Of a DNA stretch of 64,000 nt, positions 5,413 through 45,572 are shown in pieces (position 1 is the first letter of the stretch; every line of letters starts with the position of its first letter). Origin of the DNA: Haloarchaeobius iranensis (GTDB lineage Archaea > Halobacteriota > Halobacteria > Halobacteriales > Natrialbaceae); contig NZ_FNIA01000016.1 of assembly GCF_900103505.1 (NCBI RefSeq), forward strand, positions 1 to 64,000, read 5' to 3'. Both the position numbers and the translations under genes were made by a program. Under the pieces are notes generated by a model. The model saw only the letters and a program-made list of their open reading frames with translations. It was not told the DNA's origin and did no database searches.

Positions 5413-5732
5413 CAGAGCCCTACTGACGGCCTTCGGGCCGCTACCGCTGGCCGGAAACCGCAAGCCGGCGATGGAACTCTCTCTGGGGTGGTAGTTCCAG
5501 GAAGGGGGGTTGGGGGGAGTATGGGGGTGGCGACAGCACTTCACTGCGTTTCGCCGTCTGCACCTTGGGTGGGCAGGTAGGTAATCTTTAACTCTAATCA
5601 CTTAGTGTCCAATCGAACCGGCATCTAAACAGTTAGAGTCGCGATTCGGGCTCGGTGGGGAACACGATGCGAAGAGTGGTTCGGACGTGGGGTTCCTGAA
5701 GGGTTAAGAGGATGCACCGAGCAGGGCGGAAC
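5413..5732. other. 320-base gene-free region with hairpins and G-runs
   Basis: No convincing gene is seen here. CGGCC-TTCG-GGCCG (5427-5440) is a perfect tetraloop hairpin just after the transporter stop. TGGAACT (5472-5478) pairs with AGTTCCA (5493-5499) around a 14-base loop. Four runs of G follow on the + strand (5485-5488, 5504-5509, 5512-5517, 5523-5527), enough in principle for a G-quadruplex. From about 5580 the sequence turns AT-rich, which may hold the promoter of the thioesterase gene. Confidence 0.4.
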
Positions 5733-6119
5733 ATGGACATCGAGTCTTTCTTCGAGGAGATGCCGTTCGCCGACCTCCTTGGCGTCGAGGTGACCGAAGC
5801 GACCGACGGCCACGCGGAGGGTCGCCTGGAGATGCGCGAGGAGCTCTCCTGGAACGCCGACCAGCTGATGGCCCACGGCGGGGTGACGTTCACGCTCGCG
5901 GACACCGTCGGCGGGGCGGCACTCGTCTCGCTCGTCGACCAGCCGGTCCCGACGATAGACATGCGTATCGACTACCTGGACGCCGGCACGGGCGACCTGT
6001 ACGCGGAGGCGGACGTGGTCCGTTGCGGCGGCGACGTCGGCACCGTCGACGTGGACGTGTACGCCGCGTCCGACGACACCCTGATCGCGGACGCCAGGGG
6101 CGTCTACAAGACCGGGTAG
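5733..6119 (+). CDS. paaI: PaaI-type hotdog-fold acyl-CoA thioesterase
   Basis: A 128-residue hotdog-fold protein. It shows the PaaI pattern: an N-terminal helix (FFEEMPFADLLGVEV), the central LMAHGGVTFTLADTVGGAAL helix region that carries the family's catalytic/CoA-binding HGG segment, and the TIDMRIDYLDAG strand. PaaI enzymes hydrolyse hydroxyphenylacetyl-CoA or related aryl-CoA esters to free trapped CoA. The ATG at 5733 is chosen over one at 5712 because the family begins with the FF/L helix. It lies next to the phenylacetyl-CoA epoxidase genes, which supports the name; generic medium-chain thioesterase activity is the alternative. Confidence 0.8.
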   Translation: MDIESFFEEMPFADLLGVEVTEATDGHAEGRLEMREELSWNADQLMAHGGVTFTLADTVGGAALVSLVDQPVPTIDMRIDYLDAGTGDLYAEADVVRCGGDVGTVDVDVYAASDDTLIADARGVYKTG

Positions 6120-6320: not shown

Positions 6321-6953
6321 CTAGTCGAACACCTGCGCCATGAGCGCGGCCTGTCCCCGGCGGAGCCGTTCGAGGAACGCCGACTTGCCGATGCCGAGCT
6401 CCGCCGCGACGTCGCCGGCGTCGGCCCGGCGCGGCACCTCGAAGTAGCCCATCTCGTTGGCCAGCCGGAGTGCCTCCTCCTGTGCGGGCGTGAACCCCCA
6501 TCGCCGAGCGACCGCCTCGTCGTCCTCGCTCCCGAGTGGGTAGATGCGTTCGAGGGTGACGCCGACGGCCTCCCCCGCGGCCTCGAGGACACCTTCGAGC
6601 ACATCGTAGCCGACGACGGCACCGGTGTAGGTCTCGACGCCGTCGGCGTAGCTCAGTGCCTCCGCCATGAACCCCGCGTCCGTCAGCTGGTGGACGACGC
6701 AGGGATGCTTGGAGAGACAGCGGTAGTTGACCCGCTCGTCTGTCGAGGAGGCGTGGAGGTACCGGATGCGTTCGTCGGCGTCGAGCACCGGCGCGATGGC
6801 GGGGTCGCCGGTGAACTGGAGGAGCGCGTTGCCGTCGGCCCGACGCTGTGGCGGCTTCGCCTCGACGGTGGTGTCCGTCTCACGCGTCGCGGTCGCGAGC
6901 GGACAGTCGTCACCCGTCACCGCGAACTCGACGACGAGGCACTCCTCTATCAT
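6321..6953 (-). CDS. Bat-like HTH regulator, divergent from the paa genes
   Basis: A 210-residue regulator. The C-terminal 55 residues are an HTH_10 (Bat-type) domain: GFTPAQEEALRLANEMGYFEVPRR followed by AAELGIGKSAFLERLRRGQ. The N-terminal 150 residues resemble the sensory region of haloarchaeal HTH_10 proteins, with YRCLSKHPCVVHQLTDAG, and may bind a ligand. ATG at 6953 (MIEECLVVEF) is the family-typical start; longer upstream sequence overlaps the promoter. It is transcribed away from paaA with a 133-base shared promoter region, so control of the paa operon is inferred. Confidence 0.8.
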   Translation of the reverse strand: MIEECLVVEFAVTGDDCPLATATRETDTTVEAKPPQRRADGNALLQFTGDPAIAPVLDADERIRYLHASSTDERVNYRCLSKHPCVVHQLTDAGFMAEALSYADGVETYTGAVVGYDVLEGVLEAAGEAVGVTLERIYPLGSEDDEAVARRWGFTPAQEEALRLANEMGYFEVPRRADAGDVAAELGIGKSAFLERLRRGQAALMAQVFD

Positions 6954-7017
6954 GGAACGGGGTTCGCAGTGTGGACCTATGGTGTTGTCGTCGAGCCGAA
7001 CATCTTGCCGCGGGTGG

Positions 7018-7086: not shown

Positions 7087-8031
7087 ATGGATATCGAGGA
7101 GGTCAAACAGCGGGCAGGACCGCGGGAGTTCAGTCCGAAGGACGAGATGCCGGAGGAGTACCGGAAGGCGGCGACCCGGATGATCCAGTTCCACGCGAAC
7201 TCCGAGATCATGGGTGCGTACCTGGAGAAGCCGTTCATCCGCCAGGCACCGAGCCTGGACCGCAAGCTCGCGTTCAGCGCGAAGGTGCAGGACGAAATCG
7301 GGCACGGACAGCTGCTCTACCGGGCGGCCGAGAGCCTGGGCATCAAGACCCGCGACGAGATGCTCGACGAGCTCGCCGAGGGGAAGGGGAAGTTCCTCAA
7401 CTGCTTCCACTACCCGATGGAGAGCTACGTCGAGACCCCGATGATCGCGTTCTTCGTCGACGGGGCGGCGATGCGCCGGCAGGCCACACTCAAGTCCACC
7501 TCGTGGGAGCCGTACGCCCACGCCATGGACAAGGTCTGTTTCGAGGAGGGCTTCCACGTCAAGCACGGTGAAGCCATCCTCTACGAGCTGATGACCGGCT
7601 CGAAGAAGGAACAGGAGATGACCCAGGAGGCGTTCGAGAAGTGGTGGCCGCGTATCATCCAGTTCTTCGGCCCCACCAACGAGAAGTCGACCCACCACGG
7701 CTTCGCCAGCGAGGTCGGGCTCAAGCAGATGAGCAACGACGACCTCCGGACCGCGTTCCTCAACGCCTACATCCCGAAGGCCGAGAAGTACGGCCTGGAG
7801 ATTCCGGACGAGCCGCGCATCTCGAAGAACGACGACGGCACCTACGAGGTCGTCGAGGAGGACCTCGACTGGGACGAGTTCTTCACCATCGCGAAGAACG
7901 ACTACGAGCCCGGCGTCGGCCAGATCAACGGCCGGAAGGCCGCTCAGGACGCCGTCGAGTGGGTCCGCGAATCGCTCGACAGCCACGAGAACCGGCTCTA
8001 CGGTTCCAGCCAGCCGCAGGCGGCAGACTGA
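7087..8031 (+). CDS. paaA: Phenylacetyl-CoA 1,2-epoxidase subunit PaaA (catalytic, di-iron)
   Basis: A 314-residue ferritin-like protein matching PaaA. It would insert one oxygen atom into the ring of phenylacetyl-CoA, making the 1,2-epoxide. Di-iron ligands are visible: Glu40 (HANSEIMG), Glu70-x-x-His73 (QDEIGHGQ) and Glu154-x-x-His157 (EEGFHVKHGE); spacing agrees with the bacterial enzyme. Length is normal (about 310-330). It heads a run paaA-paaB-paaC-paaD-zinc ribbon with gaps of 4 bases or overlaps, so the five are one operon. A PaaE-type reductase is needed for electrons in bacteria and is not seen here. Confidence 0.95.
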   Translation: MDIEEVKQRAGPREFSPKDEMPEEYRKAATRMIQFHANSEIMGAYLEKPFIRQAPSLDRKLAFSAKVQDEIGHGQLLYRAAESLGIKTRDEMLDELAEGKGKFLNCFHYPMESYVETPMIAFFVDGAAMRRQATLKSTSWEPYAHAMDKVCFEEGFHVKHGEAILYELMTGSKKEQEMTQEAFEKWWPRIIQFFGPTNEKSTHHGFASEVGLKQMSNDDLRTAFLNAYIPKAEKYGLEIPDEPRISKNDDGTYEVVEEDLDWDEFFTIAKNDYEPGVGQINGRKAAQDAVEWVRESLDSHENRLYGSSQPQAAD

Positions 8032-8035
8032 GACC

Positions 8036-8365
8036 ATGATCTGGGAAGTATTCAGACAGGAGAAGTCGGGCGACTACCACAAGCACTGTGGGAACGTCCA
8101 CGCACCGGACCGGGAGATGGCACTGCTGTTCGCCGAGGTCCAGCACGGGCGCCGCAAGCCCACGAACAGCCTGTGGGTCACCCCGCAGAAGGAGATCGGC
8201 GAGGTCGACACCGAGGACACGGCCTTCGGCGGGACGACCGACAAGTCCTACCGGTGGGCCATGACCTACAACTTCGAGGCCGCCGCGTCCGAGGTCGAGG
8301 AGTCCGAGAGCGAGCAGGCGACGGCCGACCGCGAGCGCAAGGCCCAGATCGAGGGTGGTAGCTGA
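8036..8365 (+). CDS. paaB: Phenylacetyl-CoA epoxidase subunit PaaB
   Basis: A 109-residue protein with the PaaB signature: WEVFRQEKSGDYHKHCGNVHAPDREMALLFAEV, then a LWVTPQKEI strand. PaaB is a small structural subunit that bridges PaaAC heterodimers in the epoxidase complex. The C-terminal 30 residues are a charged, haloarchaea-style tail. The ATG lies 4 bases after the paaA stop, and the stop overlaps the paaC start (TGATG at 8363-8367). Confidence 0.92.
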   Translation: MIWEVFRQEKSGDYHKHCGNVHAPDREMALLFAEVQHGRRKPTNSLWVTPQKEIGEVDTEDTAFGGTTDKSYRWAMTYNFEAAASEVEESESEQATADRERKAQIEGGS

Positions 8366-9237
8366 TGGCGGCCGTCGAGGAGCTCTCCGAGCCCGGTGAG
8401 CTGACCGCCGAGGAGCGCGAGGCCGTGCAGCACCAGCTGTTCCGGCTGGCGGACGACGAGTTCGTCGTCGCCGAACGCTACACGGAGTGGCAGGTCAAGG
8501 CTCCGACCCTCGAGTCGGACCTCGCGTTCTCGAACATCGCACAGGACGAGCTGGGTCACGCCCGGCTCTGGTACGACCTGCTCCAGGACTGGGGGGCCGA
8601 GGAGTCCGAGCTCATCTGGGAGCGCGACCCGTCGGAGTGGCGTCACTCCACGCTGGTCGAGCTGCCGTTCGACGAGGGCGACTGGGCGGACCCGGTCCTC
8701 CGCTCGTACCTCTACGACGTGGCCGAGGACATCCAGCTCCGCGCGCTGCAGGACTCGTCGTACCCGCGCATCCGCGACCGCGTCGGGAAGATACTCGGCG
8801 AGGAGGACTACCACCGCGAGCACGCGGCGAACTGGCTCGAACGGCTCTGCGAGGAGGACGAGAGCCGCGAGCGCGTCCAGGCGGCCCTCGACCGGCTGTT
8901 CCCGTACGCACTGACGCTGTTCGCGCCGACCGACGAGGAGGTCGAGGACCGCATCGACGACCTCGGCATCCGCACCGAGCCGCTCGTCACCATGCGCGAG
9001 GAGTGGCTCGACGAGGTCGTCCCGTACCTCGAGTCGCTGGGCCTCAGTATCGACGACGCCGAACTGCCCGAGCAGTACGACGTCCACCACAACCAGTTCG
9101 ACCTCCCCGATGCCGTCGGCCGCGACCAGTCCCACACCGACGACTGGTACGACCTGCAGGAGGATTTCACGCACTCGTACCGGGAGCTCGGCCGCACCAG
9201 CGCCGAACGCATCATGAAGGACCCCGACGATGAGTAA
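8365..9237 (+). CDS. paaC: Phenylacetyl-CoA epoxidase subunit PaaC (structural)
   Basis: A 290-residue ferritin-like protein matching PaaC, the structural partner of PaaA. Di-iron-like motifs are retained: Glu62-x-x-His65 (AQDELGHARLWY) and EEDYHREHAANW near residue 150; PaaC in bacteria keeps the fold but is not thought to be the catalytic subunit. Later conserved segments include LFPYALTLFAPTDEE. The gene overlaps paaB by one base and paaD by 8 bases, showing tight translational coupling. Confidence 0.93.
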   Translation: MAAVEELSEPGELTAEEREAVQHQLFRLADDEFVVAERYTEWQVKAPTLESDLAFSNIAQDELGHARLWYDLLQDWGAEESELIWERDPSEWRHSTLVELPFDEGDWADPVLRSYLYDVAEDIQLRALQDSSYPRIRDRVGKILGEEDYHREHAANWLERLCEEDESRERVQAALDRLFPYALTLFAPTDEEVEDRIDDLGIRTEPLVTMREEWLDEVVPYLESLGLSIDDAELPEQYDVHHNQFDLPDAVGRDQSHTDDWYDLQEDFTHSYRELGRTSAERIMKDPDDE

Positions 9238-9700
9238 CGCCTACGACACCGACATCCCGGACTCGGTCGACCCAGTCGACGACGACTGCGTAGAGCCCGC
9301 CGGGGAGGCCTGTGCGTACACCGAGTACGTCGAGGGTGAGGCGTACGACGACGTGCCCGCGACCGGCGAGGGTGCCGAGGGCATCGAACGCGACGTCTGG
9401 GACACCCTATACGAGATCGAGGACCCGGAGATGCCGATCTCCATCGTCGACCTCGGGCTCATCTACGGCGTCAGCGTCGACGACACCGACGACGGCACCG
9501 TCGCCACGGTCGACATGACGCTGACGTACTCGGGCTGTCCCGCACGGGACATGCTCCAGGACCAGATGCAGGAGGCCGTGGAGGCCGTCGAGGGCGTCGA
9601 CCGCGCCGACCTCCGCCTGGTCTGGTCGCCGGAGTGGAACCTCGAGCTGGTGACCGAACAGGGCGAACAGGACCTCCGCGAGTTCGGACTCAGCATATGA
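9230..9700 (+). CDS. paaD: PaaD-like MIP18/DUF59 protein (Fe-S maturation), lacks its zinc ribbon
   Basis: A 156-residue protein. After a 45-residue acidic extension comes a MIP18/DUF59 domain: DPEMPISIVDLGLIYGV, then MTLTYSGCPARDMLQDQM with the family's conserved cysteine, then WSPEWNLELVTEQG. PaaD proteins help mature the iron-sulfur or di-iron centres of the epoxidase system. Bacterial PaaD continues into a C-terminal zinc ribbon; here the protein stops at FGLSI and the ribbon is encoded by the next gene, whose ATG overlaps this stop (ATGA at 9697-9700). Confidence 0.9.
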   Translation: MSNAYDTDIPDSVDPVDDDCVEPAGEACAYTEYVEGEAYDDVPATGEGAEGIERDVWDTLYEIEDPEMPISIVDLGLIYGVSVDDTDDGTVATVDMTLTYSGCPARDMLQDQMQEAVEAVEGVDRADLRLVWSPEWNLELVTEQGEQDLREFGLSI

Positions 9701-9864
9701 GACGCGCGGACCCATCCGTCACGACCAGCGGCGACATGGAGGGAGCCGAGTGTCCGTACTGCGGCTCCGAGAACACCGTCCGCGACCACCCGAAGGGCCC
9801 GTCGCTCTGCCGGTCGATGCACTACTGCAACGACTGCGAACAGCCCTTCGAGAAGTTCGAATAA
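9697..9864 (+). CDS. Free-standing PaaD zinc-ribbon domain protein
   Basis: A 55-residue protein with Cys19-x-x-Cys22 (CPYCGS) and Cys44-x-x-Cys47 (CNDC), an additional Cys38, and the ending CEQPFEKFE. This closely resembles the C-terminal zinc ribbon of bacterial PaaD (CPRCGS ... ALYRC..C.EPF.-F). It starts inside the stop codon of the paaD gene. I read it as the second half of PaaD carried as a separate polypeptide; it presumably reassociates with the DUF59 half. The ATG at 9697 is chosen for the overlap; an in-frame start upstream would lie inside paaD. Confidence 0.85.
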   Translation: MRRADPSVTTSGDMEGAECPYCGSENTVRDHPKGPSLCRSMHYCNDCEQPFEKFE

Positions 9865-40699: not shown

Positions 40700-41548
40700 C
40701 TACCCGGACCACTCAGGCTCGCGGTCCTCGAAGAAGGCGTCGATGCCCTCGTTCTTGTCCTCCCCCGCGAACAGCAGCGCGAACAGTTCCGCCTCGTACT
40801 CGATGCCAGCCTCGAGTTCCATCCGCGACGCCGCCTTCACCGCCTTCTTGGCGTGTTCGAGCGCCACCGGCGACTTGGACGCCATCTTTCCCGCGAGGTC
40901 GTAGACGCGCTCGTCGAGGTCTTCCGGCTCGTACACTTCGTCGACGAGGCCGATGTCGTCGGCCTCCTCGGCGTCGATGAGCTCGCCCGAGAGCACCAGC
41001 CGCATCGCCTGCCCCTCGCCGACGAGCCGGGGGAGTCGCTGTGTCGCGCCCCCGCCGGGCATGATACCGAGGTTGATCTCGGGCTGGCCGAACTTGGCCC
41101 CGTACTGCGCGATGCGCACGTCACAGCCGAGTGCGAGTTCGGAGCCGCCGCCGAGGCAGTGGCCGTTGATGCGGGCGACGACGGGCTTCTCCAGGTCGTC
41201 GACGTACTCGTAGACGCGGGGTCGCTTCGACGCCTCGCGCTGTTCGAGGGCGTCGCGCTCGCGCAGCTCCGTCACGTCCGCGCCGGCGACGAACGCGCTG
41301 GACTCGTCCGAGCCGGTGAGGACGACCACGCGCACGTCGTCGTCGGCCTCGACCGCGTCGAGAACGTCCTTCAGCTCGCGGCGGAGCTGCGCGTTCAGCG
41401 CGTTGCGGGCGTCCGGCCGGTCGAGCGTGACCGTCGCCACACCCTCGGCCGCGTCGCCGACCGCGACACGAACCAGTTCGCAGTCGGCTGCCGCCGCCTC
41501 CGCGTCCACGGTCCCGCCGTCGTCGTCCGCCGCTTCGTCACCGCTCAT
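40700..41548 (-). CDS. Enoyl-CoA hydratase/isomerase (crotonase) family
   Basis: A 282-residue crotonase. FVAGADVTELRERD forms the first oxyanion/CoA-binding segment; GHCLGGGSELALGCDVRIA and FGQPEINLGIMPGGGATQRLPRL hold the two catalytic Glu positions of hydratases, so hydratase activity is likely. The N-terminal 25 residues are a haloarchaea-style acidic extension. It would hydrate enoyl-CoA in fatty or phenylacetate-derived acyl-CoA breakdown. Its ATG (41548) overlaps the stop of the 3-hydroxyacyl-CoA dehydrogenase gene, so the two form an operon. Confidence 0.9.
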   Translation of the reverse strand: MSGDEAADDDGGTVDAEAAAADCELVRVAVGDAAEGVATVTLDRPDARNALNAQLRRELKDVLDAVEADDDVRVVVLTGSDESSAFVAGADVTELRERDALEQREASKRPRVYEYVDDLEKPVVARINGHCLGGGSELALGCDVRIAQYGAKFGQPEINLGIMPGGGATQRLPRLVGEGQAMRLVLSGELIDAEEADDIGLVDEVYEPEDLDERVYDLAGKMASKSPVALEHAKKAVKAASRMELEAGIEYEAELFALLFAGEDKNEGIDAFFEDREPEWSG

Positions 41549-42432
41549 TCACCGTCACCCCAGTCGCCGGAGGTGCCGACGATCTCGCCGTCCTCCCAGA
41601 CGTAGAAGCCCTCGCCGGTCTTCTTGCCGAGCTTGCCCGCCCGGACCTTCTGCTTGAGCAGCTGCGGCGGCTTGAACCGTTCGCCGAGCTCCTCGCGCAG
41701 GTACTCGAGGATGTCCAGCCGGACGTCCAGCCCGACGATGTCCCCCAGCTCGATGGGTCCCATCGGGTGGTTGTAGCCCAGCTCCATCGCGGCGTCGATG
41801 TCCCGCGGCGAGGCGACGCCCTCCTCGAGCATCCGGACGGCCTCGACACCGAGCGTGACGCCCAGCCGCGACGAGGCGAACCCCGCCGAATCACGGACCG
41901 TGACGGCCGTCCGGTCGATTCCCTCGACGAACTCCTCGGCGAAGGCGACCGTCTCCTCGCTCGACTGCTCGGGGACGACGACCTCGACCAGCTGCATCAG
42001 GTGGACCGGGTTGAAGAAGTGCAGTCCGACCGCGCGGTCGTCGTGGTCGAGCGCACTGGCGATCTCCGTGATGGACAGCGAGGAGGTGTTCGTCGCGATG
42101 ACGGTGTCCTCGTCGACGGCCGCCTCGACGCCCGCGAACGTGTCCTTCTTCAGGTCCATCTGCTCGGGGACCGCCTCGACGACGAGGTCGGCACCCGCGA
42201 CGGCCGGTTCGAGCTCGACCGCGGTGTCGATGCGCGCCAGTGTGGCCTCCATCTCCTCCGGGGTGACCTTGTCACGGTCGACGCCGCCCTGGAGGTTCGA
42301 CTCGATGGTCGCCAGACCGTCCTCGACGAACTCCTGTTCGATGTCGCGCATCGTCACGTCGTGGCCGGCCATCGCCGTGACCTGCGCGATTCCGTTCCCC
42401 ATGGTCCCCGCACCGAGTACACAGACCTTCAT
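41545..42432 (-). CDS. 3-Hydroxyacyl-CoA dehydrogenase
   Basis: A 295-residue NAD-dependent dehydrogenase: VCVLGAGTMGNGIAQV (Rossmann), EAVPEQMDLKKDTFAG, ATNTSSLSITEIAS, LHFFNPVHLMQLVEVV with the catalytic His, and GYNHPMGPIELGDIVGLD. It oxidises 3-hydroxyacyl-CoA to 3-ketoacyl-CoA. Bacterial PaaH and HbdA are homologues. The stop overlaps the crotonase start (ATGA at 41545-41548). ATG at 42432. Confidence 0.93.
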   Translation of the reverse strand: MKVCVLGAGTMGNGIAQVTAMAGHDVTMRDIEQEFVEDGLATIESNLQGGVDRDKVTPEEMEATLARIDTAVELEPAVAGADLVVEAVPEQMDLKKDTFAGVEAAVDEDTVIATNTSSLSITEIASALDHDDRAVGLHFFNPVHLMQLVEVVVPEQSSEETVAFAEEFVEGIDRTAVTVRDSAGFASSRLGVTLGVEAVRMLEEGVASPRDIDAAMELGYNHPMGPIELGDIVGLDVRLDILEYLREELGERFKPPQLLKQKVRAGKLGKKTGEGFYVWEDGEIVGTSGDWGDGE

Positions 42433-42532: not shown

Positions 42533-42955
42533 ATGAGCCAACGCACGACGACGCTCGAACGCCTGCGCCAGCCCGTCGCTGGCTACGGCCTGCCCGCACG
42601 GGCGGTGGTCGCCATCGTGACGGCCCTCCTCGGAAACCTCGCCATCGTGAACCTGGCTATCTCCGCCGACCTCGCGCCCGACCTCATGGCGCTCTCGTAC
42701 CCCCCGGTCGTACTCCTGACCGTGGTCGGTGTCCTCGGAGCAACCGTCGTCTACCGGCTGCTCGAATCACGCGTCGACGCGCCGACCCGGACGTTCACCC
42801 GGCTCGCGTGGGCCGTGCTCGTCCTGTCGTTCCTCCCCGACATCGGCATCCTGCTGGCCGACGACACCGCGACGGCCGCTGGTGTCGGCGCGCTCGCGTT
42901 CATGCACCTCACGACCGCAGTCGCCTGCATCGCGTTCGTCCCGTCGGGCGAGTAA
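42533..42955 (+). CDS. Small membrane protein, DUF6069-like
   Basis: A 140-residue protein with four hydrophobic stretches, starting GLPARAVVAIVTALLGNLAIVNLAI and ending VGALAFMHLTTAVACIAFVP. The FLPDIGILLADDT loop and overall order match haloarchaeal/actinobacterial DUF6069. Divergent from the dehydrogenase gene. Function unknown. Confidence 0.75.
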   Translation: MSQRTTTLERLRQPVAGYGLPARAVVAIVTALLGNLAIVNLAISADLAPDLMALSYPPVVLLTVVGVLGATVVYRLLESRVDAPTRTFTRLAWAVLVLSFLPDIGILLADDTATAAGVGALAFMHLTTAVACIAFVPSGE

Positions 42956-42969
42956 GGGGCCGCCGCCGG

Positions 42970-44400
42970 TCACTCCGCGGGCGTGACCTTGCAGCCGTAT
43001 CGCGTGACGCCCTCCTGCGTGTAGATGCGGCGGAACTCGGCTGTCACGGCGTCGCCGACACCCACCGAGCCCGGGTCCGCGTCGGTCACCTGCACAGGGA
43101 CACTCACGCTGCCGCCGTCCGGACCGTCGAGCGCGACGACCGCGACGGCGAAGTCACCGGACTTGGACTGCTGCTCCGCGAACTCCGGCGGTGCGCCCCC
43201 CTGCGAGATGGTCGTCACCGCCTCGACAGTGCCGGTCCCCGGGAGCTCGACCGGCTCCGTGCCCTCGCGCCCGTTGCAGGACTCGCAGGCACCGGCCGGC
43301 GGGAAGTTCAGCGCGTCACAGGACAGACAGCGGCCGGCCTCGAGCCGGTAGCGCTGCGGAATCGAGCGCTTCCAGGACGGGACGGAGACGTACGCGCCGC
43401 CGCCGTCCGGGGGGCCGGAGGTGACCTCGCCGCGCTGGCGGAGGTACTCGGCGTAGGAGAGGTTCGCACCGCCGTCGAGGGCGAGGTCCGCCGCGACGCC
43501 CTCCTCGTCGTCGTGCACGACGACGAGCGCGTCCGCACCGGCACCCGAACCGACGCCGACGACGAGCGTGGTCTCCACGCCCGCCGCGAGCGCTCGGGCG
43601 AGCGAGAGCGGCGCGCTGGCCGCCCCGGTGTCGCCGAGCTCCTGCACCGTCGCGACCTCGTAGATGGCCGCGTTGTCGACGCCGAGCGCGCCGGCGACGC
43701 GGTACGGGCGCTTGCCGTCGGCGGCCTGGATGGCGACCGCGTCCGGCTCCGGGTCGGCGTCGAGCGCGTCGACAGCGCCCGTGACGACCTCGCGGAACGC
43801 CGTCCGGTCGTACGTCGTCACGTCGAGGCCCTCGGTGCGGTCGGTCCCCGCTTGCCGGAACCGGGTACCGGGGTACGGCGTCGCGTACTCGGCGCTGTCG
43901 GCCACCGTCGCCGCCCCGTCGCCGCCGAGGACGAACGCCACCGCCCCGGCCCCGGCCGCGTGGTCGACCGCGTCGTCGAGGTGCCCCTTCGGACAGTCCG
44001 CGGCGACCACGAGGGCGAGCCCGTCGTCGAGGTCGGCCGCCACGGCGTCGGCGAGTGCCGAGGTACCGGCCCGAGTACTCCCACCGTGGAACCGGCGGGT
44101 CGCCGTCTCCGGCACGCCGAGTGCCGCGCCGAGCCGACTCGTCAGGTCCGCCTCGGCGAGCGGCGGGGTGGTCGAGGCGAAGGCGAGGTGCGAGACCTCG
44201 TCACCGTCGCTCCCGTCGGTGGCGAGCGCGCGCTTCGCGGCCGCGGCCGCCATCGTGAGGGCGTCCTCGTCGGCTCCCGGGACCGCCTTCTCTTCGATGC
44301 CCGACGCGTGGAACTGGCCCCACGCCTCCTCGAACGCCTCGGCGGTGATGCGGAAGCGCGGTGCGTACGCCCCGACGGCGCGGATGGAGTTCCCGGTCAT
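42970..44400 (-). CDS. HMG-CoA-synthase-like protein fused to a DUF35 zinc-ribbon/OB domain
   Basis: A 476-residue protein. Residues 1-345 have the HMG-CoA synthase fold: AVGAYAPRFRITAEAF, a FHGGSTRAGTSALADAV helix (family Cys site), and AADGKRPYRVAGALG. The catalytic residues seem lost: where archaeal enzymes have Cys in F-A-C-K-A-G-T this has Thr109 (GGSTRAGTSA), the GSES Glu region reads ASTT, and the family HQPNGK His is replaced (QAADGK). Residues 356-476 are a DUF35 domain: zinc ribbon Cys358, Cys361, Cys372, Cys375 and an OB fold. Its ATG overlaps the stop of the thiolase gene. Confidence 0.85.
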   Translation of the reverse strand: MTGNSIRAVGAYAPRFRITAEAFEEAWGQFHASGIEEKAVPGADEDALTMAAAAAKRALATDGSDGDEVSHLAFASTTPPLAEADLTSRLGAALGVPETATRRFHGGSTRAGTSALADAVAADLDDGLALVVAADCPKGHLDDAVDHAAGAGAVAFVLGGDGAATVADSAEYATPYPGTRFRQAGTDRTEGLDVTTYDRTAFREVVTGAVDALDADPEPDAVAIQAADGKRPYRVAGALGVDNAAIYEVATVQELGDTGAASAPLSLARALAAGVETTLVVGVGSGAGADALVVVHDDEEGVAADLALDGGANLSYAEYLRQRGEVTSGPPDGGGAYVSVPSWKRSIPQRYRLEAGRCLSCDALNFPPAGACESCNGREGTEPVELPGTGTVEAVTTISQGGAPPEFAEQQSKSGDFAVAVVALDGPDGGSVSVPVQVTDADPGSVGVGDAVTAEFRRIYTQEGVTRYGCKVTPAE

Positions 44401-45572
44401 GCTCCGACCTCCTCGCGCTCGAACGCGTGAACGACGGCCGCCCCGCCGCTCCCGCCGACATTGTGTGTTAGTCCGCGAGTTGCGCCCTCGACCTGTCGCT
44501 CGCCAGCCTGCCCGGTGAGCTGCTTGAACGCCTCGACGACCTGCCCCGCACCGGTCGCGCCGATGGGGTGTCCCTTGGACTTGAGGCCGCCGGAGGTGTT
44601 GACGACGACCTCGCCGCCGTAGTCGCTCCGGCCGTCGGTGACGAACGCGCCGGACTCGCCCGGTTCGCAGAGGCCGAGGTCCTCGTAGGCCATCAGCTCC
44701 GCGATGGCGAAGCAGTCGTGGACCTCCGCGAAGTCCAGCGACTCCGGACCGAAGCCGGCCATCTCGTAGGCTGTGGCGGCCGCTTCGGCGGATGCGGGGA
44801 CGTTCACGTAGGAGTCGCGCTGGAACAGCCCGACGCGGTCCGACGCCGCGCCCACGCCGGCCACGCGCAGGGCCTCGTCGGCGTACTGGTCGACGACATC
44901 CTCGCTGACGACGATGGCCGCCGCCGCGCCGTCGGTCGTCGGGCAGCAGTGATAGAGGTTCAGCGGGTCCGCGACGACCGGCGCGTCCATCGCGTCCTCC
45001 AGCGAGCAGGTGAACCCGAGATGGGCGTGGGGGTTGTCCGCACCGTGGGCGTGGTTCTTCACGGCGACGTGGGAGAGCTGCTCGCGCGTGGTGCCGTACT
45101 CGGCCATGTGCGCGCTTGCCATCTGGGCGTAGACCCCGGCGAACGTCGTGCCGGAGAGTCGCTCCCACTCCGTCTCGCCGCTGACGCCGAGCCAGTACTT
45201 CGTCGCGTCACCGGAGGCGTCGGTCATCACCTCGACGCCGCCCGCGAGCACCACGTCGGCCATCCCGGACTTGACCGCCTGGACGGCCTGCCGGACCGCG
45301 TAGCCCGACGCGGCACAGGCGTTCTCCACTCGCGTCGTCGGCACGCCGTGGAGCCCGACGTGCTCGGTGACCGCCGGCCCGGAGAGCCCGAGCTGACGGC
45401 CGCCGACGCCGAGCGTTCCCACCACGGCCTCGTCGAAGTTGTCGGTGTCGATACTCCCCGCGACGCTGTCGACGGCCGCGTCGAAGGCCGTCTCGAACAG
45501 CGACCGGTAGCTCTCGTCGGGGAACGAGCCGAAGTCCGACTGCCCGGCCCCGACGACGTACGCATCTCGCAT
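44397..45572 (-). CDS. SCP-x-type thiolase, partner of the DUF35 fusion
   Basis: A 391-residue thiolase of the sterol-carrier/archaeal type. VENACAASGYAVRQAV has the nucleophile Cys86; the active-site His lies in GGLKSKGHPIGATGAGQ; the C-terminal loop is LTHNVGGSGGAAVVHAFE. In archaea such thiolases form a complex with an HMG-CoA synthase joined by DUF35 that channels the intermediate. Here the next gene (ATGA overlap) fuses a non-catalytic-looking HMGS and DUF35. TATA-like CTATATGC lies about 25 bases before the ATG. Confidence 0.9.
   Translation of the reverse strand: MRDAYVVGAGQSDFGSFPDESYRSLFETAFDAAVDSVAGSIDTDNFDEAVVGTLGVGGRQLGLSGPAVTEHVGLHGVPTTRVENACAASGYAVRQAVQAVKSGMADVVLAGGVEVMTDASGDATKYWLGVSGETEWERLSGTTFAGVYAQMASAHMAEYGTTREQLSHVAVKNHAHGADNPHAHLGFTCSLEDAMDAPVVADPLNLYHCCPTTDGAAAAIVVSEDVVDQYADEALRVAGVGAASDRVGLFQRDSYVNVPASAEAAATAYEMAGFGPESLDFAEVHDCFAIAELMAYEDLGLCEPGESGAFVTDGRSDYGGEVVVNTSGGLKSKGHPIGATGAGQVVEAFKQLTGQAGERQVEGATRGLTHNVGGSGGAAVVHAFEREEVGA

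Follow-up and report, generated by a model that had tools for sequence, protein, structure and literature searches.

Which pathway is served by a protein that resembles HMG-CoA synthase (HMGS), appears to lack its active site, is fused to a DUF35 domain and is encoded beside a thiolase? To answer this question we analyzed a gene pair of this kind from Haloarchaeobius iranensis, located on contig NZ_FNIA01000016.1, of which positions 1 to 64,000 are referred to here as the window. A sequence-only reading of the locus had proposed that an inactive HMGS-like/DUF35 protein and an active thiolase act in acyl-CoA breakdown and not in mevalonate synthesis, a proposal that fits the comparative evidence described below.

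Modules of the gene pair

Both genes were located where the sequence-only reading had placed them (Table 1), the thiolase gene first and then the fusion gene, with an overlap of 4 bp (ATGA). The HMGS-like and DUF35 parts do form one chain, since the HMGS alignment and two Pfam matches above cut-off, zf-ChsH2 (PF12172, residues 346-378) and OB_ChsH2_C (PF01796, residues 384-457), fall within a single 476-aa ORF. The Pfam domains and the four zinc-ribbon cysteines, all retained as had been claimed, identify the C-terminal part as DUF35 (ChsH2-type zinc ribbon plus OB fold). The DUF35 part matched 6ESQ_E with E=1.4e-10, and more weakly PhlB and ChsH2; the top sequence matches of the whole fusion included 6ESQ_I and 6ESQ_E, and its closest named relative was that of Haloarchaeobius sp. 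FL176 (93% identical).

The fold was assessed using a single-chain AlphaFold model of the fusion (pLDDT 80.9, pTM 0.84). The best PDB matches of the model were the HMGS of 6ESQ/6ET9, followed by PhlA, and the TM-score against 6ESQ_I was 0.82 (normalised to the target), in agreement with the suggestion that the HMGS/KAS III fold is retained.

The adjoining thiolase is of the archaeal/SCP2-like type and carries an intact catalytic set, Cys86, His285 (HDCF motif) and His335 (GHPxGATG motif), invariant across 27 sequences. Its closest solved relative is the acetoacetyl-CoA thiolase of 6ESQ. The genome also encodes other SCP2-type thiolases and two conventional thiolases of the Thl7 kind. The dehydrogenase and crotonase that had been noticed near the pair lie downstream on the same strand as overlapping genes. 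An ORF for a DUF6069 membrane protein (about 42560-42955 of the window, + strand), read in the opposite direction, separates the fusion gene from the dehydrogenase gene.

Table 1. Positions in the window of the gene pair, its modules and the related genes
Feature	Position	Strand	Evidence
HMGS-like/DUF35 fusion protein, 476 aa	42970..44400	-	ORF and translation
HMGS-like pseudoenzyme domain (putative), about residues 1-325	43426..44400	-	6ESQ_I alignment 6-326
DUF35 domain (zinc ribbon + OB fold), about residues 340-474	42979..43383	-	PF12172, PF01796
Zinc ribbon cysteines C358, C361, C372, C375	43276..43329	-	Invariant in 28 homologues
Thr109 codon, catalytic Cys column	44074..44076	-	Alignment
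Thiolase, archaeal/SCP2-like type, 391 aa	44397..45572	-	6ESQ_A, E=8e-82
3-Hydroxyacyl-CoA dehydrogenase (HAD), downstream of the pair	41545..42432	-	NCBIfam 3-hydroxybutyryl/acyl-CoA dehydrogenase
Enoyl-CoA hydratase (crotonase)	40700..41548	-	Best NCBIfam match PaaF, below cut-off
paaA, 1,2-phenylacetyl-CoA epoxidase subunit	7087..8031	+	TIGR02156, 294 bits, above cut-off
paaB (haloarchaeal type)	8036..8365	+	NF041867, 190 bits, above cut-off
paaC	8365..9237	+	TIGR02158, 163 bits, above cut-off
paaD (haloarchaeal type)	9230..9700	+	NF041868, 217 bits, above cut-off

Active site and descent of the HMGS-like domain

The catalytic columns were set by alignment to the HMGS of M. thermolithotrophicus (6ESQ chain I). 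Thr77, Thr109 and Gln225 of the fusion occupied the columns of the catalytic Glu, Cys and His, respectively, as the sequence-only reading had perceived, and a fourth loss that it had overlooked was found at the Asn of GNTYSG, replaced by Asp257. The same was seen in the haloarchaeal homologues: the Glu column was Thr or Ser in 47, the Cys column Thr in 46 of 47 (Ala in the other) and the Asn column Asp in all 47, while the His column was Gln in 85% and Thr in two, His being retained in a few divergent homologues (L040, L048, L051-L053). Since none of the 47 homologues has the Glu, Cys or Asn, and 15 of 15 canonical archaeal HMGSs retain all four residues, the loss is neither a local accident nor an alignment slip. 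The alignment with the canonical enzymes also ruled out that the residues persist at shifted positions: no stand-in Cys was found nearby across the homologues, the Cys136 position varying between Ala, Cys, Ser and Asn, and no other Glu/Cys/His set aligned. Against the archaeal HMGS equivalogs of NCBIfam (TIGR00748/PRK04262) the fusion scored far too low, with 84 bits for a cut-off of 353 and 139.5 bits for a cut-off of 244. Loss of Glu, Cys, His and Asn indicates that the domain should be unable to make HMG-CoA, and judging by these residues the fusion is almost certainly dead as an HMGS. A second, intact mvaS, which the sequence-only reading had proposed to look for, is present elsewhere in the same genome (G000, contig C48); it encodes a bacterial-type enzyme of 445 aa with all catalytic residues, suggesting that the fusion is dispensable for mevalonate synthesis.

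The core of the earlier description, an apparently dead HMGS-like/DUF35 protein paired with a thiolase, was upheld, but the arrangement is not peculiar to this locus: it belongs to a large family that is conserved in haloarchaea and has relatives of the Archaeoglobi type. The fusion or close relatives were found in 189 of the 293 Halobacteriales genomes sampled (about two thirds), a count that leaves out weak matches and scores as negative any genome unlisted by the searches. The whole-genome loci inspected and the named-genome set (81 loci) all showed the two genes side by side, and in annotated records they overlap by 1-4 bp. Comparison with two close relatives gave dN/dS values of 0.16-0.18 for the HMGS domain, 0.12-0.13 for DUF35 and 0.05 for the thiolase, indicating that every part is under purifying selection, the thiolase most strongly and the other two less so. 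With values of 0.05-0.18 neither gene is a pseudogene, and these values together with the family-wide conservation rule out relaxed decay in one species.

When a tree was computed from an alignment stripped of the catalytic columns, the archaeal forms that lack the active site (dead forms) made up one clade (support 100/99) that grouped with PhlA (98/80), and the canonical archaeal HMGSs stood apart (95/90). The haloarchaeal fusions were one group (93/87). Fused forms were also found at the base (L174) and among the Archaeoglobi-type genomes, and unfused forms (L172, L173) branched between them; because of long branches this order is unsafe, and the fusion in the dead forms may have had one origin or several.

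The unfused forms come from two haloarchaeal genomes (G088 and G049), in which separate genes for the dead HMGS and DUF35 lie directly 3' of the thiolase gene, likely representing the state before or after fusion. In one of these genomes, G049, another dead-HMGS/DUF35/thiolase set, which is very divergent, lies at a distance of about 5 kb. The loci L175 and L176, whose gene content points to Archaeoglobi-type genomes, have a fused dead HMGS-DUF35 (8265-9671 and 8215-9621, respectively) with a thiolase, and there the fused form coexists with a canonical HMGS (L190 and L189, respectively). On one metagenome contig (L028, 3-2402) thiolase and HMGS-DUF35 share one open frame; as the thiolase end is garbled, this apparent triple fusion is most likely a frameshift.

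Genomic context and phenylacetate degradation

The neighbours of the pair were surveyed within 8 kb in 81 loci (80 named and the window). In 35 loci an HAD gene was found on the same strand, and 23 loci had paa genes of two or more kinds; about half of the loci lacked both HAD and any recognised paa gene. The sequence-only reading had expected a generic beta-oxidation context; full beta-oxidation operons do occur, as do acyl-CoA dehydrogenase/ligase operons, but the commonest recognisable context was phenylacetate degradation. In Haloarcula sinaiiensis and Halorubrum sp. PV6 complete paa islands enclose the pair, containing the paa epoxidase genes, aldehyde dehydrogenase, MaoC, paaI, paaK, a conventional thiolase, a dehydrogenase and a hydratase, and in Haloferax mediterranei the pair is surrounded by paaK, paaI-like thioesterases and MaoC. 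In Halostagnicola it is found with ACAD, HAD, ECH and an acyl-CoA ligase. Many paa islands also hold a conventional thiolase (Thl7); none of this cluster was found near the pair in 10 of the 23 paa-type loci.

In one Archaeoglobi-type locus of the L175/L176 set the neighbours of the fused dead form are an acyl-CoA ligase, an acyl-CoA dehydrogenase, a FadB-like protein and a subunit resembling benzoyl-CoA reductase/2-hydroxyacyl-CoA dehydratase. On Haladaptatus plasmids (L197, L200) a divergent copy of the pair adjoins a second PaaA/PaaB/PaaC-like oxygenase set and two UbiD decarboxylases, possibly another aromatic ring-opening pathway.

In H. iranensis about 35 kb separate the pair from the paaABCD genes of the same contig, and paaK belongs to a different contig. 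The paaE position is taken by a small CPxC zinc-finger ORF (9697-9864), and a divergent HTH-type regulator gene (6321-6956) and a hotdog thioesterase gene (5712-6119) adjoin the cluster.

Across the 293 Halobacteriales genomes, the pair and a strong match to PaaA were found together in 142, the pair only in 47, PaaA only in 10 and neither in 94. The pair was thus present in 142 of 152 PaaA-positive and 47 of 141 PaaA-negative genomes, with an odds ratio of 28 that ignores shared ancestry. The 47 genomes with the pair and no clear PaaA rule out an exclusive tie to phenylacetate and indicate that its breakdown is not the sole role of the pair.

Proposed complex and alternative readings

The closest precedent is PhlACB, the 2,4-diacetylphloroglucinol acyltransferase (5M3K, 5MG5, 9SKH), in which an HMGS-like subunit and a DUF35 protein accompany an SCP2-type thiolase that does all the chemistry. 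PhlA has neither the key Cys nor the key Glu, catalysis relies on PhlC residues only and all three genes are needed (PMC6392133); PhlA has been termed inactive (PMC2954200). The haloarchaeal pair likewise encodes together a dead HMGS-like part, DUF35 and a catalytic thiolase, and a similar division of labour is proposed here from sequence. PhlA, its sister in the tree, shares with it the replacement of GNTYSG by GDxGxAS and the Gln in the His column. However, identity between the HMGS domains is about a fifth (22-23%, fold comparison), PhlACB is encoded by three separate genes, and it performs a CoA-independent C-acylation in a bacterial antibiotic pathway, whereas the neighbours of the pair belong to CoA-thioester catabolism and no phloroglucinol genes were recognised among them.

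The archaeal acetoacetyl-CoA thiolase/HMGCS/DUF35 complex (6ESQ, 6ET9) has the same three modules and gave the best sequence and fold matches, but its HMGS is active, unfused and used for mevalonate synthesis; in the loci seen, the canonical gene order was HMGS-thiolase-DUF35, compared to thiolase-HMGS-DUF35 in the pair. Ltp2-ChsH2 and the benzoylsuccinyl-CoA thiolase BbsAB also combine DUF35 with an enzyme of the SCP2-like thiolase superfamily in CoA-thioester catabolism; we know of no HMGS-like subunit in either. PaaJ, the 3-oxoadipyl-CoA/3-oxo-5,6-dehydrosuberyl-CoA thiolase of the phenylacetate pathway, resembles the pair in the proposed reaction and in operon position, but is a conventional single-gene thiolase, which the pair would either replace as a non-orthologous enzyme or accompany as a partner.

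The intact separate mvaS, the constant linkage to the thiolase, the degradative neighbourhoods and the precedent of PhlA support a PhlACB-type complex of a pseudo-HMGS scaffold and a catabolic 3-oxoacyl-CoA thiolase, which we regard as the likely arrangement. That the fusion works as a complex with the thiolase is very probable. The thiolase would be the sole catalyst and the HMGS-like domain a pseudoenzyme that keeps its fold and may still bind CoA; the fusion would join the two non-catalytic parts in one chain that docks on the thiolase as scaffold and channel wall, probably shaping its acyl-CoA channel. There are good grounds to believe that the pair is catabolic: the dehydrogenase and hydratase neighbours suggest that the thiolase acts in the cleavage direction, most likely by thiolysis of the 3-oxoacyl-CoAs that these enzymes would supply, often from the phenylacetate pathway at the PaaJ step or steps. 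In lineages that bear paa genes the balance tilts slightly towards a role in phenylacetate breakdown, where the pair may carry out one or both thiolytic steps, replacing PaaJ or alongside a conventional thiolase.

Other readings start from the same proteins. A persisting HMG-CoA synthase with unusual residues could be argued from the sequence searches, in which the genome yielded no archaeal-type HMGS homologue other than the fusion; the replacement of all four catalytic residues with no compensating Cys, and the bacterial-type mvaS elsewhere in the genome, make this hardly credible. Re-tooling of the HMGS-like pocket for other chemistry, through Thr109 and the newly fixed His147, Tyr197, Arg199 and Arg234, is a long shot: Thr109 is nearly constant in haloarchaea, and several positions that differ from canonical HMGS have become fixed for another residue, but more widely in the dead clade the Thr109 column is Pro, Ala, Phe, Met or Gly and most members no longer have the His, so that no catalytic set is visible.

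The complex might instead be synthetic, a beta-ketothiolase that makes acetoacetyl-CoA or 3-oxovaleryl-CoA for polyhydroxyalkanoate (PHA) or to feed mevalonate synthesis; the pseudo-HMGS would then be a relic. The kinship of the thiolase with the 6ESQ enzyme is in keeping with this, and an OB-fold beta subunit is likewise used by the PHA ketothiolases of haloarchaea. The neighbours are nevertheless catabolic, the conserved ones include no recognisable mvaS or PHA gene, and the genome has its other SCP2-type thiolases, making synthesis improbable. More speculative than the scaffold reading itself, and in our opinion rather doubtful, is an extension of it in which the PhlACB-like class with pseudo-HMGS-DUF35 would be the standard archaeal thiolase of aromatic and acyl-CoA degradation, its HMGS pocket holding or channelling acyl-CoA (possibly with chemistry of its own via Thr109) and widening the substrate range of the thiolase, for example to both thiolytic steps of phenylacetate breakdown.

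The combination of dead HMGS, DUF35 and thiolase is already known from PhlACB; no description of the fused archaeal, probably catabolic form was found in the open-licence literature searched. Members of the family are annotated as 'zinc ribbon domain-containing protein' or 'HMG-CoA synthase', names that hide the likely role and invite false mevalonate assignments; the label follows ancestry, whereas the pair is probably an enzyme of degradation. A recent survey described archaeal phenylacetate pathways as incomplete (PMC13186573), and a component of them that would be overlooked by PaaJ-based searches has a strong candidate in the pair. Haloferax mediterranei, one of the genetically tractable haloarchaea, has the pair in a paa cluster and would allow a direct test of what the dead subunit is for. 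The family would show that an HMGS paralogue, as in PhlA, lost catalysis and yet persisted as a conserved subunit, here in a catabolic setting.
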